A DNA stretch of 64,000 bases, taken from positions 32,269,902-32,333,901 of the forward strand of contig OU452198.1 of the NCBI GenBank assembly GCA_911728435.2. Direction: 5' to 3'. The notes under the pieces are model-generated. The model was not told the DNA's origin. It did no database searches and saw nothing but the letters and a program-made list of their open reading frames with translations. Positions 25,618 through 57,690 of the stretch are shown here, in pieces; the stretch's first letter is position 1; each line of letters opens with the position of its first letter. Position numbers and translations under genes: made by a program. The DNA is from Apoderus coryli. Taxonomy: Eukaryota; Arthropoda; Insecta; Coleoptera; Attelabidae.

Positions 25618-25672
25618 AACATATATATATATAAGAATTGCTTGTTACATAGAGCAACAAGACTTTAAGTTA

Positions 25673-25778
25673 TGTTGGAAATTTATTTCACACTACCATG
25701 CTTCCACCAGACGGCCGTTTCGTCGATCCACGACTCATCAGTGGTGATCGGCAGGCAGTGTGACCTAAATTTCCAACA
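25673..25778 (-). ncRNA. Hammerhead ribozyme, satellite copy 1
   Basis: Read on the minus strand. Core CTGATGA, stem II GTCG/CGAC with loop TGGAT, GAAA, palindromic stem III ACGGCCGT, cleavage triplet GTC (cut expected between plus-strand positions 25709 and 25710). Stem I: CACCA/TGGTG next to the core, then an internal loop, a 10-bp helix TCACACTGCC/GGTAGTGTGA and a 13-bp helix TGTTGGAAATTTA/TAAATTTCCAACA. The internal loop is where natural hammerheads make their activating tertiary contact with loop II. Confidence 0.92.
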
Positions 25779-26008
25779 TTTACAAAGAGCTTATACTAGC
25801 ACGAGAATTGATTGAGAAAGAGATGTTTGTGGCGACACCTAGCGTGAACAGGCAATATGCCGGGTGAAACACAGTTCACTACGATGGCCGGACAAGAAGT
25901 AACAACTCCATTATATCCTATTGCCAACACTAGATGCGCCCGAATCCCCTAGCAGGGAGGCTTTATTTAAGAATTGCTTGTTACATAGAGCAACAAGACT
26001 TTAAGTTA

Positions 26009-26114
26009 TGTTGGAAATTTATTTCACACTACCATTCTTCCACCAGACGGCCGTTTCGTCGATCCACGACTCATCAGTGGTGATCGGCAGGCAGTGTGAC
26101 CTAAATTTCCAACA
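26009..26114 (-). ncRNA. Hammerhead ribozyme, satellite copy 2
   Basis: Same structure as copy 1 with a single G-to-T difference on the plus strand (CATTCTTCC) in the stem I internal loop. Expected cut between plus-strand 26045 and 26046. Confidence 0.9.
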
Positions 26115-26430
26115 TTTACAAAGAGCTTATACTAGCACGAGAATTGATTGAGAAAGAGATGTTTGTGGCGACACCTAGCGTGAACAGGCAATATGCCGGG
26201 TGAAACACAGTCTTGTTGCTCTATGTAACAAGCAATTCTTAAATAAAGCCTCCCTGCTAGGGGATTCGGGCGCATCTAGTGTTGGCAATAGGATATAATG
26301 GAGTTGTTACTTCTTGTCCGGCCATCGTAGTGAACTGTGTTTCACCCGGCATATTGCCTGTTCACGCTAGGTGTCGCCACAAACATCTCTTTCTCAATCA
26401 ATTCTCGTGCTAGTATAAGCTCTTTGTAAA

Positions 26431-26536
26431 TGTTGGAAATTTAGGTCACACTGCCTGCCGATCACCACTGATGAGTCGTGGATCGACGAAACGGCCGTCT
26501 GGTGGAAGCATGGTAGTGTGAAATAAATTTCCAACA
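26431..26536 (+). ncRNA. Hammerhead ribozyme, satellite copy 3
   Basis: Complete type I hammerhead as in copy 1, here on the plus strand. CTGATGA at 26468-26474, GAAA at 26488-26491, expected cut after C26499. Confidence 0.93.
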
Positions 26537-26766
26537 TAACTTAAAGTCTTGTTGCTCTATGTAACAAGCAATTCTTAAATAAAGCCTCCCTGCTAGGGGA
26601 TTCGGGCGCATCTAGTGTTGGCAATAGGATATAATGGAGTTGTTACTTCTTGTCCGGCCATCGTAGTGAACTGTGTTTCACCCGGCATATTGCCTGTTCA
26701 CGCTAGGTGTCGCCACAAACATCTCTTTCTCAATCAATTCTCGTGCTAGTATAAGCTCTTTGTAAA

Positions 26767-26872
26767 TGTTGGAAATTTAGGTCACACTGCCTGCCGATCA
26801 CCACTGATGAGTCGTGGATCGACGAAACGGCCGTCTGGTGGAAGCATGGTAGTGTGAAATAAATTTCCAACA
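26767..26872 (+). ncRNA. Hammerhead ribozyme, satellite copy 4
   Basis: Identical in structure and position within the 336-bp unit; expected cut after C26835. Confidence 0.93.
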
Positions 26873-27102
26873 TAACTTAAAGTCTTGTTGCTCTATGTAA
26901 CAAGCAATTCTTAAATAAAGCCTCCCTGCTAGGGGATTCGGGCGCATCTAGTGTTGGCAATAGGATATAATGGAGTTGTTACTTCTTGTCCGGCCATCGT
27001 AGTGAACTGTGTTTCACCCGGCATATTGCCTGTTCACGCTAGGTGTCGCCACAAACATCTCTTTCTCAATCAATTCTCGTGCTAGTATAAGCTCTTTGTA
27101 AA

Positions 27103-27208
27103 TGTTGGAAATTTAGGTCACACTGCCTGCCGATCACCACTGATGAGTCGTGGATCGACGAAACGGCCGTCTGGTGGAAGCATGGTAGTGTGAAATAAAT
27201 TTCCAACA
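27103..27208 (+). ncRNA. Hammerhead ribozyme, satellite copy 5
   Basis: Identical in structure and position within the 336-bp unit; expected cut after C27171. Confidence 0.93.
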
Positions 27209-27438
27209 TAACTTAAAGTCTTGTTGCTCTATGTAACAAGCAATTCTTAAATAAAGCCTCCCTGCTAGGGGATTCGGGCGCATCTAGTGTTGGCAATAGG
27301 ATATAATGGAGTTGTTACTTCTTGTCCGGCCATCGTAGTGAACTGTGTTTCACCCGGCATATTGCCTGTTCACGCTAGGTGTCGCCACAAACATCTCTTT
27401 CTCAATCAATTCTCGTGCTAGTATAAGCTCTTTGTAAA

Positions 27439-27544
27439 TGTTGGAAATTTAGGTCACACTGCCTGCCGATCACCACTGATGAGTCGTGGATCGACGAAAC
27501 GGCCGTCTGGTGGAAGCATGGTAGTGTGAAATAAATTTCCAACA
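27439..27544 (+). ncRNA. Hammerhead ribozyme, satellite copy 6
   Basis: Identical in structure and position within the 336-bp unit; expected cut after C27507. The next unit is truncated before its ribozyme. Confidence 0.93.
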
Positions 27545-27744
27545 TAACTTAAAGTCTTGTTGCTCTATGTAACAAGCAATTCTTAAATAAAGCCTCCCTG
27601 CTAGGGGATTCGGGCGCATCTAGTGTTGGCAATAGGATATAATGGAGTTGTTACTTCTTGTCCGGCCATCGTAGTGAACTGTGTTTCACCCGGCATATTG
27701 CCTGTTCACGCTAGGTGTCGCCACAAACATCTCTTTCTCAATAT

Positions 27745-27880
27745 ATATATATTTTATTTGGAAATATAGCTTGTCACTAAGAGTTTTGCGGTAAAGCTAA
27801 AATAACAAAAAGGTCCTAAAAATATTACTTTTCAAAATAAACATGGAGAGCTATTCGTGCCTCGAGGGCATCAGTTTATT
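27745..27880 (+). mobile_element. HINE-like copy C, 3' end only
   Basis: Matches the 3' ends of copies A and B: ATAACAAAAAGG, then ATGGAGAGCTATTCGTGCC and hairpin TGCCTCGAGGGCA at 27858-27870, followed by the shared CAGTTTATT. The upstream part is replaced by the satellite array and an AT run. Confidence 0.7.
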
Positions 27881-27884
27881 TAAT

Positions 27885-28075
27885 AAAATGATTTGTGTCC
27901 GTAAATATAATAAAATGAAAAATAATTTCGTGGCATAGCGGAAAAAATTCCTATTGTTACCTACACAAGAGATTTTGTTTAATTTAGCTAAATTAATAGT
28001 AATTTTGTCCGCTATGACGCGAAATTATTTTCCAGATTATTTTTTAATGTTCATAACCACCAAATCCTCTGCTAC
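27885..28075. mobile_element. Fold-back family member (diverged)
   Basis: Contains GTCCGTAAATATAATAAAATG, AATAATTTCGTGGCATAGCGG and the inverted TCCGCTATGACGCGAAATTATT. These are the arms of the fold-back element at 35242-35498. Here the centre is short and the arms more diverged. Confidence 0.6.
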
Positions 28076-34689: not shown

Positions 34690-35241
34690 CTGCACTGTTA
34701 AAACAGAATAGTAAATTTACGTAAAATATAACTGTAATATTTATTCAACCATTCCCTCACGTAATTTTCCACCTTGACTGTACAACTACAATATTAATCG
34801 AAATATTACAATTTAAAATTACGCCACATTTAGTGTAAAAATACAATATTAAGGTAAAATTACAAATTAAAGTTACACTTAATTTGGTGTACAATTACAC
34901 AATATCGTAAAATTACAAATGAAAATTACGCTGCATGTCATGTAAAAATACACTTATAAGATTAAATTACAACATAAAAGTACGCTTAGTTACGTGTACT
35001 TTTACACAATCGCTGTCTAAATAATACCAATATTTTAACGTATTTTTGCGGTAAGGCCCGGAAATGTACAATGCTCGTAAAACAATAGTGGAATTTACTT
35101 AAAATTTACAGTGTTCTTACATAAAAAATGGGGAAAAAATACCATTTTTGTACAGTAAGAACGTAATTATACGTAATTTTGTTGTACTTTCATGAATATT
35201 TATGTGAATTTACAGAAACTTTATCTGAATATTTCATTATA
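34690..35241. repeat. AT-rich repeat with GTAAAATTACA-type tandem units
   Basis: Between about 34,700 and 35,030 variants of GTAAAATTACAAAT and GTGTAAAAATACAC recur every 60-75 bp. The region starts with GCACTGTTAAAA; a similar inverted TTTTTAACAGTGTGC occurs at about 37,690. It continues beyond the fold-back insertion at 35242-35498 (ACTTACCGTATTTGTAC). Confidence 0.45.
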
Positions 35242-35498
35242 AATGAAAATAATTTCGTGGCAAAGCGGACTAAAATGTTGGCTTTACCTACACAAGGAAT
35301 TTTTGTTTAATTTAGCAGGGCCCCAGTCTAATTCGATAGAAACCAGACCGAGGCATGGGTCGGTCTGGTTTCTATCGAATTAGACTGGGGCCCTGCTAAA
35401 TTAAACAAAAATTCCTTGTGTAGGTAAAGCCAACATTTTAGTCCGCTTTGCCACGAAATTATTTTCATTTATTATATTTACGGACATGAAATCCTCTT
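35242..35498. mobile_element. Long-hairpin element with 14-bp target duplication
   Basis: AATATTTCATTATA is duplicated on both sides (35228-35241, 35499-35512). Arms 35243-35351 and 35360-35469 are almost perfect inverted repeats of about 109 bp around GGCATGGG. A 29-nt unpaired tail (35470-35498) ends AAATCCTCTT. The long variable duplication plus a one-sided tail fits RNA-mediated insertion better than a cut-and-paste MITE. Confidence 0.75.
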
Positions 35499-35662
35499 AA
35501 TATTTCATTATACTTACCGTATTTGTACATTTTTAGATGATCTATGTACCCAGATAGTTTCTGTAGACGTGAAAAATTGTCCATACTGAAATGGAGTCAG
35601 ATCTTTTGTGTGTGAAATGAAAGTCAACACCACCAAATAAATTTAATAATCGCTCTATGCGT

Positions 35663-40889: not shown

Positions 40890-41675
40890 AGAGAATTTTG
40901 GAAATGTTTTGGCCTTAATGCAGAATATTTCCTATAAAGTGTTCCATGTACTCTCATCTATCACAAATGATTTCGGCTTTTTAGTTTTATTGTCTGAATT
41001 CCTCAGTGATACCAAATATTAAAGCAATCTCTAAGTAAGAACAAAAAAAATATACTCATATTTGTTCACGTTTTACTTTAAAATTACTTTAGTTTTCAAA
41101 TACGAGTAGATGTCATACCATATGCTTCAGTAATAAACTGCTGTATCTGCTCCCGTTCGCTTTATAGCCGTCTGACTGTCACCTTAGGAAAGCTAGTAAT
41201 GTTTAGTATTTTGAATGAACTTTGATCACTTACATTAAGAGCATCAAATAACCTGACCACTGTAACCAGATCATATTATATGTATATACCTATTCTCGAT
41301 ATACATATTTTACCGCTTACGAACTTGCCCTAGTGCAACACCACTGGCATCATTTAGTGTGAAACTTGTTGTTCACTATCTTTTACTTTACTCCTATCTA
41401 TATATTTTTGGTGTACACCTGAATAGATTTTATGAATCGAATAATCATAACGATAGATTTGTATTACTTAGAAGAAAACAATATTTAGCAGCCACATAGG
41501 CAATTTAATATTAAAAATTTAATTGCTAACTTAAAATTCTTGGTGTTAGGTAAGATGGATGTTTGTAACAGAATGGGAACTTTTATTTATGTTGTATGAT
41601 TTAATTTTAGATATTGTTTCCACGTACAGCAGTTTAGTTGATAAAATAAATATTTCATCGAAATTAGAGCATTTT
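40890..41675. other. No gene recognised
   Basis: AT-rich, no family or structure seen. Short open frames on both strands near 41.55-41.7 kb reach into the satellite relic. Confidence 0.35.
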
Positions 41676-41677
41676 GA

Positions 41678-41949
41678 CAAGATGTTTTTGGCGATATCTA
41701 GTGTGAGCATCAGGCAATATCCGGTAACAACTCCATTAAATCCTATTACCAACAATAGATGCGCCCGAATTCCCTGACGGGAGGCTCTATTTATGAATTG
41801 CTTGTTACATAAAGTAACAAGACTTTTAGTTATGTTGGAAATTTGTTTCACGCTACCATGCTTTAACCAGACGGGCTGTTTCATTGATCCACAACTCATC
41901 AGTGGTGATCGGCAGGCAGTGTGACCCATATTTCCAACATTTACGAAGA
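41678..41949 (-). repeat. Diverged dispersed copy of the 336-bp satellite, part 1
   Basis: Matches the inverted-block orientation of the array from GATGTTTTTGGCGA through CCAACATTTACGAAG, with a roughly 40-bp internal deletion near 41,722. Continues at 42373-42393 and 44628-44765 after two insertions. Together they span more than one unit length, i.e. parts of two adjacent units. Confidence 0.85.
41833..41939 (-). ncRNA. Hammerhead ribozyme, diverged satellite copy
   Basis: Minus strand: CTGATGA, stem II GTTG/CAAT, GAAA, GTC. Relative to the array copies a C-G pair of stem II has become T-A and the closing pair G-T, so pairing is kept. Stem I next to the core is CACCA/TGGTT (one mismatch); stem III is damaged (CAGCCCG). 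The outer stem I helices are still recognisable. Activity is doubtful. Confidence 0.75.
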
Positions 41950-42013
41950 ATCATCAATAAAACTGCGTCTGCTCCACAAAACAAACACAAATATATTGCT
42001 GATTTGTCAATTA

Positions 42014-42052
42014 GTCATACATGTTTCGAGGTACTACCTCATCATCAGTGAC
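42014..42052 (-). ncRNA. Hammerhead ribozyme-like motif (left arm)
   Basis: Minus strand: stem I GTCA/TGAC, CTGATGA plus extra T, stem II GAGG/CCTC with loop TAGTA, GAAA, palindromic stem III ACATGT, A at the cleavage site (GTA). Core bases conserved. Confidence 0.65.
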
Positions 42053-42229
42053 ATTAAGTTTGTGAATGTTATCCGTTATTAAAAAATTTTAAATGTTAAA
42101 TTATGTGCTAGAGATAAGAAGTTCTTATTCTTAGAATACCCTAGATGTCTAGAAATAAGAAGTTCTTATTTCTAGAACACAATTAACATTGTAAATTTTT
42201 TAATAACGGATAACATTCACAAACTTAAT

Positions 42230-42268
42230 GTCACTGATGATGAGGTAGTACCTCGAAACATGTATGAC
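42230..42268 (+). ncRNA. Hammerhead ribozyme-like motif (right arm)
   Basis: Inverted duplicate of the left-arm motif with the same stems: GTCA/TGAC (42230-42233, 42265-42268), stem II GAGG/CCTC, ACATGT stem III. Expected cut after A42264. Confidence 0.65.
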
Positions 42269-42393
42269 TAATTGACAAATGAGCAATATATTTGTGTTTG
42301 TTTTGTGGAGCAGACGCAGTTTTATTGATGATTAATCATCGCTCCTCTTTGAAATGGATTACTTTACTAAATATTTACGAAGAGCTTATACTA

Positions 42394-44627
42394 TACCGGA
42401 TGTCCCACCGGGAAGGGATTCGATCGATTATGGAGAAACTACACTGGAAAACAATCTGAAAATCTGGTGTAGTACTTAGGTCGATGGGACCAATTCGGCT
42501 AAAATGTTTTCAAAAATCTAGCACTTCCGGTTATAGCTTATTTCAATATATAAATTATATATTTTTTTTGGATTCTCCTTGTAAGTCTAAACATATTTCA
42601 TGTATAATAAATATGTTATACCTATCGCCAGCCGTTTTCGAAATATTTGAAATTTTATGTCAAAAAGGACGTTTTTACCATAAAGAATAATAACAATTTT
42701 CTATTATATGGAAGCTCTAATAATTTAATTTGTTAGAATATCCTAGGAGATATAGATCTACTTTAGGCGCGTACGTATATTAAATATTAATACAGGGTAT
42801 TTGAAAAAAAGGGTAAAAGATCAAATTGAAAAAAGTGTCAAAATTCAAAATTTTTAAATGGAAACCTATTTTATATATTTTTTATTTTTTTGCATCAAAA
42901 ATAAGGGCAAGTTTATGAAAAGATGTCTATCCCAAAAACTGATAGTTTTCAAAATATTGGCAATTTTACATTTTTCTATTACAATAGTGATATGAATTTG
43001 AAATTTAATTGAATTTAGTTGGCCATGATGGCTTTAGATAGCAAATAAATATGACACTTGCCAAAAATAATCAACAATTATGACAAATTGTAGACATTAA
43101 TTAGTAGTAATAATCATGGCGGGCGTATAAATTATACTAACGCATACTATCTAAATTTGTCTATTATTTATGGATAATGGGACAGAGTGATGTCACAGAC
43201 GTGTGATACATTCGCTGCCAGGTACGCAGAAAAACACAGGCCATCACCAAAAGTTGTTAAACGGATAATAGATAATTTCAAAAATTTCGGGTCAATAAAG
43301 ACAAAACTAAAACGAAGGAAACCTATTTGTGACGATGAAGCTGAAGAAATAGCTATACTGAGGTACTTCACGGCATATCCTACGACATCTCTGAGAAAAT
43401 TTGCAGTGGAGTCTGGATTTTCTAAAAGCGATCGATTATTATATCTGGGGGACGATCAAAAATGAAGTGTATAGCATCAGACATTTGACCACTAAAGAGG
43501 ACTGTATGCAAAGAGTTCGGAATGCATTTGCCAATTTGAGTCAACTATCTATTCGGCGGGCAACACATGAACAATTAATTTTGGGATGTGAAATGTGTTT
43601 AGAAGTTCAAGGTCAAAATTTTGAATATTTGTTAAAGTAATTTTTCTTATGAGTTGACCTTAGATAAGTTTGTATCATACGTTCACGTTATTAGTTAATC
43701 AAATTCTTCACAGACTCGAAAATTTCGAAATTATGTATTATTAGTTTAACAACTTTTGGTGATGGTTTATGTTTTTCTGGGTATTTGGTAGCAAATGTTA
43801 TCACACGTTCTTGATATCACTCTGTTACATTATCCATAAATCATAAAAAAATTTATATAGTATTCGTTAGTATAATTTATACGCCCGCCATGATTATTAC
43901 TAGTACAATTTGTCATAATTGTTGATTATTTTTGTCAAGTGTCATATTTATTTGCTATCTAAAGCCATCATGGCCAACTAAAATCAATTAAATTTCAAAT
44001 TCATATCACTATTGTAATAGAAAGATGTAAGATTGCCAATATTTTGAAAACTATCAGTGTTTGGGATAGACATCCTTTCATAAACTTGCCCTTATTTTTG
44101 ATGCAAAAAAATATAAAATAGGGGATTTCCATTTAAAAATTTTGAATTTTGACACTTTTTTCAATTTGATTTTTTACCCTTTTTTTCAAATACCCTGTAT
44201 TAATATTTACTAAAAAAATATACGTAGGCGCCTAAAGTAGGACTATATCTCCTAGGATATTCTAACAAATTATATTATTAAAGCTTCCATATAATAAAAA
44301 ATTGTTATTATTCTTTATTCTGAAAACGTCATTTTTGACATAAAATTTCAAATATTTCGAAAACGGCTGGCGATAGGTACAACGTAGTATGCATGAAATA
44401 TGTTAAGAATTATAAGGAGAATCCAAAAAAAATATAATTAATATAGAGTAGTATTTGAAATAAGGAAGTTGACACCTATTTCCGGTATAACCGGAAGTGC
44501 TAGATTCTTAAAAACATTTTAGCCGAATTGGTCCCGTCGACCTAAGTACTACACCAGATTTTCAGATTGTTCTACCGTGAATTTTCTCCATAATCGATCG
44601 GTTCCCTTCCCGGTGGGACACCCGGTA
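42394..44627. mobile_element. Giant fold-back mariner-like transposon
   Basis: TA duplications at 42392-42393 and 44628-44629 are confirmed by the uninterrupted satellite sequence (CTTATACTAGCACGAG), so the boundaries are exact. Arms of roughly 900 bp (42394-43301 and about 43690-44627) are inverted repeats starting TACCGGATGTCCCACCGGG. The right arm includes a reversed copy of the 5' end of the transposase gene, while the loop keeps its C-terminus. Centre about 390 bp. This resembles the smaller mariner at 2.6 kb in architecture but with the opposite end duplicated. Confidence 0.85.
43187..43640 (+). pseudogene. Mariner-like transposase with the catalytic core deleted
   Basis: Frame 43187-43465 gives the helix-turn-helix domain (DTFAARYAEKHRPSPKVVKR, NFKNFGSIKTK, DDEAEEIAIL). 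After FAVESGF a deletion shifts the frame and joins to AIDYYIWGTIKNEVYSIRHL and FANLSQLSIRRATHEQLILG, the C-terminal end after the DDE core, stopping at 43640. All catalytic acids except the region adjacent to the last are missing. The DNA-binding domain could still be made in principle, but a function is not indicated. Family as at 4.0, 6.1 and 31.1 kb. Confidence 0.75.
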
Positions 44628-44765
44628 TAGCACGAGAGATAACTGACAACAAGATGTTATTGGCGACATCTAGTGTGAGCAGACAATATGCCCGGTGAAA
44701 CATAGTTCACAAACGGTCGGACGAGAAGCAACAACTCTATTAAATCCTATTGCCAACATTTTGTA
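44628..44765 (-). repeat. Diverged 336-bp satellite copy, part 2
   Basis: Continues the satellite from TAGCACGAGA through GGCGACATCTAGTGTGAGCA and GTGAAACATAGTTCAC to TTGCCAACA, after the fold-back transposon. Ends abruptly at about 44,765. Confidence 0.8.
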
Positions 44766-56999: not shown

Positions 57000-57690
57000 G
57001 ATAATATAAATATATTCATTTTTTTTTTTACAAAATTTAGAATGAATTTAATTTCGTATTTTAAACTCTATAGTCAGAGCTGCATTTAGAGGCCTTAAGC
57101 TGTATTCTTTGTTAAAGATATTAAGCGTTATTGAATAAACACTTGGTGGCAATAGACCTTAAGTTTCGAGCGTACTTCATTTATAATTGATAAGAGTGTC
57201 TTATTCTTTGTAGGTAGGTACTATAACAAAATCAATTAAGTACATAAGTCTGCCGCCATTTGTGTCCTCTAAGATTATTTGTAGAGACAATTAAAAAAAA
57301 ACTGTTCCCTCCTTCTCCTCGCTTTACAAAACGAGTCTTTTAAGACATCACTGATGAGTCGTCGATCAAGGAAACGACCATCTGATGAAAGTACAGTATT
57401 TAACAGACAAACAACTCTCAAGTATAAATACTTGATTGGATACTTGGATTCAGATGAATTTTCGTTTTTCCTGATCGATTTTGAGGATTGCAATATAACA
57501 ATTATTTCATGATTTTGACATTCAAATTTCTCAAAAACTAAACGTTTGGGCTGGAATGAATGTTGCTTTTTTTCTACCAGTTAATCTTAAAGGAGAAATA
57601 TCCTTGCAACTGTTATAAAAGTCGATCCGGTATTGACATACATTCTTCAACATAATGACAAGCAGAATGAGTAGATATTTCAACAATATG
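57000..57690. other. No gene recognised
   Basis: AT-rich. It contains the decayed hammerhead at 57346-57387. Nothing else is recognised. Confidence 0.35.
57346..57387 (+). ncRNA. Decayed satellite-type hammerhead
   Basis: CTGATGA, GTCG and GAAA are retained and the flanking bases resemble the 336-bp satellite. Stem I is CATCA/TGATG where the satellite has CACCA/TGGTG, a compensatory change. Stem II (GTCG/CAAG) and stem III (ACGACCAT) no longer pair well, so it is probably inactive. Confidence 0.5.

Follow-up and report, generated by a model that had tools for sequence, protein, structure and literature searches.

The window, that is, the whole stretch of 64,000 nucleotides of Apoderus coryli DNA that was analysed, holds a small mobile element in a young copy, a double array of a 336-bp unit in which 1.74 minus-strand units stand head to head with 4.57 plus-strand units, enclosed by a target-site duplication (TSD). 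Its parts are listed below, with positions within the unit preceded by u:

25633–27740, no single strand: retrozyme insertion, head-to-head double array (unit match including microhomology, 25628–27742)
25621–25632: left copy of the TSD, 12-bp (AT)6, ATATATATATAT
27741–27752: right copy of the TSD, 12-bp (AT)6, ATATATATATAT
25628–26211, minus strand: minus arm, 1.74 units, outer end at site A (u149)
26209–27742, plus strand: plus arm, 4.57 units, 100% identical, outer end at site B (u302)
26209–26211: inverted junction of both arms, 3-nt microhomology AGT

The unit match runs beyond the insert at both ends because of microhomology. A first-pass annotation of this DNA had claimed a 336-bp unit, and this period was recovered with 100% matches over 26209–27742. 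No difference separates the three complete plus units, which start at 26433, 26769 and 27105; the two minus copies show one difference (99%). The unit has a GC content of 44% and is non-coding, with a longest stop-free run of 50 codons in a four-unit array. An open reading frame (ORF) for reverse transcriptase (RT) and a GIY-YIG endonuclease is absent from it; the autonomous Penelope-like element (PLE) of this genome is a separate element. The same annotation had described the array as a satellite, a label that has to be given up. Its inverted two-arm structure, the most informative feature, had been overlooked: the first two ribozyme cores lie on the minus strand, so that the array consists of a pair of arms set head to head and is not a single tandem satellite. 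A satellite would form large local arrays that evolve in place, whereas the unit was found as small, dispersed, TSD-flanked insertions at the 40 loci examined.

All six copies in the array carry a full type I hammerhead core, as had been noticed from the sequence, and each core matches the Rfam model RF00163 (Hammerhead_1) over its full length with 32.3 bits and an E-value of 1.6e-5 in a 2.5-kb search:

25704–25747, minus strand: type I hammerhead core, RF00163
26040–26083, minus strand: type I hammerhead core, RF00163
26462–26505, plus strand: type I hammerhead core, expected cut 26499/26500
26798–26841, plus strand: type I hammerhead core, expected cut after 26835
27134–27177, plus strand: type I hammerhead core, expected cut after 27171
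27470–27513, plus strand: type I hammerhead core, expected cut after 27507

The covariance-model check that the annotation had proposed gave a divided answer. The E-value supports every core, but 32.3 bits is just under the gathering score of the model (34 bits), so a default Rfam search at gathering thresholds reports none of them and only a search by E-value reveals them. The core reads CTGATGA-GTCG-TGGAT-CGAC-GAA-ACGGCCGT-C, and the predicted details agree with the earlier description of a 4-bp stem II (GTCG/CGAC) and a stem I of more than 25 pairs with an internal loop: the extended stem I comprises 6 + 3 + 10 + 14 = 33 predicted pairs, interrupted by internal loops. The motif CTGATGA..GAAA has 16 matches in the window, against 1.14 expected from shuffling, and six of the 16 lie in the array. 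Because its stem III is a palindrome, the ribozyme might form a dimer from two copies, as PMC7229834 describes for axolotl hammerheads whose stem III is weak; these have a short palindromic stem III loop and work better as dimers. In nearest-neighbour folding, which leaves tertiary contacts aside, a rival hairpin beats the hammerhead core by 7.9 kcal/mol; activity is thus not assured: on its own a monomer may cleave weakly, or the ribozyme may work in dimeric form. For the predicted circle the folding energy is −110.6 kcal/mol, compared with −80.1 ± 5.7 kcal/mol for 100 shuffles. Judged by its sequence, the RNA of the element is probably capable of self-cleavage and of circularisation, and the expectation of self-cut, circularisable RNAs of 336 nt fits both the sequence and the published retrozyme class. 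Scans for the hammerhead core in viral contigs and in prokaryote contigs returned 0 matches. The whole-genome search with RF00163 listed four matches from 73 scored of 52,198 candidates, from which no count follows.

The unit itself was searched for in the 428-Mb genome, giving 232 matches from 40 scored places, of 1394 candidates. These 40 loci, the best matching of the 1394 and including that of the window, were analysed by mapping the unit onto each; they are mostly young, since the best-matching candidates were scored. Counting only groups of at least 200 bp, the loci hold 45 groups: 32 have a minus arm followed by a plus arm, as in the window, none has the opposite order, 11 are on the minus strand only and two on the plus strand only. 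In the double insertions the 3' ends of the arms point outward, and the outer ends fall at two fixed positions of the unit, site A near u147 (mostly u144–152) and site B near u302 (mostly u296–306). Site windows drawn once the data had been inspected take in 69 of the 77 outer ends (37 at u139–155 and 32 at u295–310), compared with only 7 of 77 inner ends, for which about 7.6 would be expected if they were uniform. A single common start site for both sides had also been considered, and was dropped when the mapping showed two.

The two sites are distributed one per side. One A end and one B end are found in 26 of the 32 double groups, among them the insertion of the window (A left, B right), while A/A occurs once and B/B never; if the sites were independent at 50:50, the probability of at most one same-type pair among 27 would be 2e-7. 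Six double groups depart from the rule based on the site windows (L015, L023a, L026, L027, L039 and L047). In all but L015 an end lies outside the windows, and L026 can be brought into line by treating its GGATTT repeat as the duplication. In L015 both ends are of type A and the host flanks mirror each other; this locus could be an inverted duplication or an assembly artefact.

A flank string of at least 8 nt is shared by the two sides in 28 of the 32 double groups, compared with 8.4% of mismatched flank pairs. The duplications measure 12–14 nt in 22 of the 26 A/B insertions, a length to which microhomology with the ends of the unit contributes. On the outer side of both duplications the sequence is biased to G/T-T-T. 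When the three of 26 insertions with duplications shorter than 12 nt (L012, L042 and L046) are left out, 15 of 46 ends carry GTT immediately outside the duplication, where flank composition predicts about 1%, and T occupies the third outward place at 39 of 46. The target context is thus roughly symmetric, AAC, 12 or 13 AT-rich base pairs and GTT, as it would be for an endonuclease acting on both strands.

The relationship between the two arms of an insertion was analysed through their sequence variants, pooling all units of at least 94% identity per locus; L014, L019 and L044 hold more than one insertion, so their variants are mixed. Divergence per site is 0.23% within a locus, 0.27% between opposite arms and 1.03% between loci. 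Several variants that are found at a single locus occur in both arms there: C250A at L020 (5/6 minus and 5/5 plus units), G174A at L029 (1/1 and 2/2), G122A at L030 (2/2 and 5/5), C161T at L034 (3/3 and 3/3), and, at L040, A199G and A213G (4/4 and 3/3 each) together with A332G (3/3 and 3/3). Others are present in both arms and shared with some further loci (A11G at L020, T109C at L032, G220A at L041 and A194G at L040), and variants limited to one unit or one arm also exist (L035, L046 and A59G at L042). On the sense strand of the RNA, every one of the four both-arm variants of L040 is an A-to-G change, which is suggestive of ADAR editing of an RNA template as their source; A194G, however, is found also in one unit of L036.

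The arms reach 2667 nt (about eight units), and 49 of 64 exceed one unit. They meet at scattered positions of the unit, and the 32 inner junctions comprise 22 with an overlap of 1–8 nt, three that are flush and seven with 1–44 extra bases. At the ribozyme cut there is no clear excess of inner ends from run-off (4 of 77 within 4 nt, against 2.1 expected), as would be the case for an endless template. Two plus arms, those of L037 and L045, start exactly at u68, where the 5' end made by the ribozyme is expected. We read both arms of an insertion as probable copies of one RNA circle; a homogeneous linear multimer, for which the same variant pattern is expected, is the main alternative.

The PLEs of the same genome show a comparable arrangement. 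Among 150 scored of 1260 candidates, close pairs of GIY-YIG matches (within 6 kb) are in the minus-plus order in 18 cases and in the plus-minus order in none. A 22-nt PLE end occurs exactly 393 times, against 0 for its reversed control; among the first 100 occurrences listed, neighbours within 8 kb comprise 35 in minus-plus order, none in plus-minus order and three both on the plus strand. In 15 of these 35 head-to-head pairs the 22-nt ends are only 175–188 bp apart, a remarkably uniform spacing, and appear to be solo inverted ends. The PLE at L049 encodes RT and GIY-YIG domains, and the best named relatives of its protein, among 120 listed, include beetle proteins from Aromia, Molorchus and Tribolium.

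In five of eight PLE pairs one end is short and the other 30–37 nt longer, each value being ambiguous by a few bases:

L049: longer-end excess 33 nt, duplication 13 bp
L050: longer-end excess 33 nt, duplication 13 bp
L052/53: longer-end excess 30 nt, duplication 11 bp
L054/55: longer-end excess 37 nt, duplication 12 bp
L060/61: longer-end excess 35 nt, duplication 9 bp

The pair at L051, where the shared string is 11 nt long, breaks the rule: one of its ends is short and the other lies at neither site. Two of the eight (L056/57 and L058/59) could not be delimited. Exactly one end of 12 of 13 family-1 pairs, and never both, is among the tail-bearing ends listed, a list made of 40 scored of 1385 candidates, so that absence from it does not prove a short end. 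Two loci from that list (C13:7974504–7974762 and C11:15981246–15981504) have one long and one short end each; their equal layout suggests that a single event may have given rise to both. The features of PLE-type integration, namely head-to-head arms, two sites with one per side and a TSD of about 9–14 bp, are thus displayed by the retrozyme and also by the PLEs of this genome, L051 and the undelimited pairs excepted. Both retrozyme start sites are unpaired in the predicted circle and flank a hairpin at u173–282. TGCTAG lies 12–14 nt downstream of each, a weak signal that was looked for after the fact (shuffle P 0.018).

Most traits of the element are those of an established class. The metazoan non-LTR retrozymes (Cervera & de la Peña 2020, PMC7229834) have a type I hammerhead, tandem units of about 170–400 bp, a GC content below 50%, a TSD longer than 4 bp and PLEs in the same genome, all as found here. 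This class, and the proposal that PLEs act as its helper, are already known. The differences from the elements described there are the mirror double arrays, the two fixed start sites with one per side, and the symmetric target; the main text of PMC7229834 nowhere uses the words 'inverted', 'orientation' or 'head-to-head'. Hammerheads in tandem repeats of animal genomes are also represented by Dolichopoda pDo500 (PMC2837043) and by newt and axolotl repeats (PMC7229834). They have been described as satellite DNA or as retrozymes, and inverted two-ended insertions were not found in the available portions of these two papers. Among the open-licence papers searched, no description of mirror-array retrozymes with two fixed start sites was found.

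The closest likeness in structure is to the PLEs with GIY-YIG. PMC3846280 describes head-to-head inverted ends, a TSD of 8–10 bp and a 31-bp 'tail' on one end. According to PMC11167929, a PLE assayed in vitro cleaves AT-rich targets on both strands and extends them from two adjacent internal sites of the RNA. Unlike the PLEs, the retrozyme has no stop-free run longer than 50 codons, its start sites are about 153 nt apart in the unit, and its template appears endless. Sequence in common with three PLE loci was not detected (best BLAST E-value 0.41).

With a probability of roughly three in four, and reasoning from genomic sequence, we interpret the element as a metazoan non-LTR retrozyme whose integration would rely on PLE-type priming, with both strands of the target extended on a single circular RNA. 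Transcripts would be cut by the hammerhead and then ligated into circles. The PLE RT/GIY-YIG endonuclease, perhaps as a dimer, would nick both strands of an AT-rich target with a 3' stagger of 12–13 nt. The two exposed 3' ends would then serve as primers for reverse transcription of a single shared RNA circle, starting at site A on one side and at site B on the other, and both cDNAs would roll round the circle for up to about eight turns. Finally, the joining of the cDNA 3' ends by microhomology would produce the mirror array and the target duplication. A more far-reaching form of the proposal, whose chances we hold to be evenly poised, is that one small circle has two separate initiation sites and that the halves of a PLE RT-endonuclease dimer each load one of them. 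The symmetric staggered break would be extended from its two ends simultaneously, round this one circle, giving a mirror array of up to about eight units per arm in a single event, by a pathway common to retrozymes and PLEs.

If this is true, two-ended rolling target-primed reverse transcription is a distinct integration pathway, for retrozymes and PLEs alike. In PMC7229834, the enzyme that spreads animal retrozymes and the role of the circles as the real transposition template are only proposals in the discussion, and the integration mode of PLEs is also unsettled in PMC11167929 and PMC3846280. With many near-identical insertions and two fixed ends (69/77 outer ends, 40 loci), both questions can be tested with one 336-nt RNA and one protein. 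Moreover, the fixed ends provide a criterion for spotting such insertions in other genomes.

The explanation nearest to this one keeps the same element and enzyme and replaces the circle by a linear multimeric transcript of an older array. We consider it unlikely, though it has real points in its favour: multimeric retrozyme RNAs are described for axolotl in PMC7229834, a homogeneous source array would put the same variants into both arms, and the plus arms of L037 and L045 begin precisely at u68. However, templates that had been cut should leave a pile-up of inner ends at u68, where no clear excess is seen, and arms of about eight units occur although every complete unit carries a hammerhead. 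A quite improbable alternative is LINE machinery with occasional twin priming. Twin priming likewise yields inverted 5' parts with microhomology, and five of ten scanned ORFs of the window match RVT_1 above the cut-off, so remnants of LINE-type RT are at hand; the Pfam scan of these ten ORFs gave RT fragments and no GIY-YIG domain at an E-value of 0.001. This mechanism sits badly with inversion in as many as 32 of 45 groups and with two fixed internal ends, one per side, and the PLEs of the same genome show the same pattern.

Head-to-head repeats would also result if an antisense transcript primed itself, a mechanism proposed for bdelloid PLEs (PMC3846280), but we regard this as very improbable here. 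A fold-back palindrome has one centre, whereas the arms here mostly break at unrelated unit positions, L019 (u64/u64) being an exception, and every outer end begins at a start site of its own adjoining a target duplication. Hardly credible at all is an ordinary tandem satellite, formed by unequal crossing-over or from circular DNA that was reinserted, and inverted in part by chance, or else an assembly artefact. The tandem 336-bp units are what a satellite would show, and the mirror-image flanks of L015 could be artefactual; against both stand the dispersal of the insertions, their fixed ends and duplications, and the motif at the target. Furthermore, the other double groups have unequal arms and unlike flanks, which fold-back assembly errors do not resemble.

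Beyond the double array, the window contains further hammerhead-related sequences. An older relative of the element was delimited as follows:

41677–44756, minus strand only: older relative, pieces 82–89% identical, about 1.4 units, outer end near site B (read by eye)
41670–41676 and 44757–44763: TSD CATTTTG of the older relative (found by eye, strings checked)

It is interrupted by two later insertions, at about 41949–42370 and about 42394–44627. The former is a hairpin element whose halves are 93% complementary, and the latter an inverted-repeat transposon with TACCGG..CCGGTA ends and a TA duplication, which we take from its ends to be Tc1/mariner-like. A composite element with terminal inverted repeats containing the hammerhead (42394–44630) had been considered for this region and was dropped, the transposon with its TA duplication being separate.

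A second hammerhead repeat is present at L030:582–1356 and L050:4422–4758, with a CTGACGA/CTGAGGA core, the stem III ACGAATTCGT and a spacing of 511 bp. In the one case available (L030), this family has two unlike ends, a short opposite-strand arm and a 14-bp TSD, AATTGTAACAATTG. Pieces related to it lie in the window at 27884–27988 and 35236–35511. Finally, an isolated hammerhead-like core is found at 57346–57391 (82.6% identical over 46 bp), in which, by eye, stem I is changed on both sides (CACCA/TGGTG to CATCA/TGATG) and stem II is broken.
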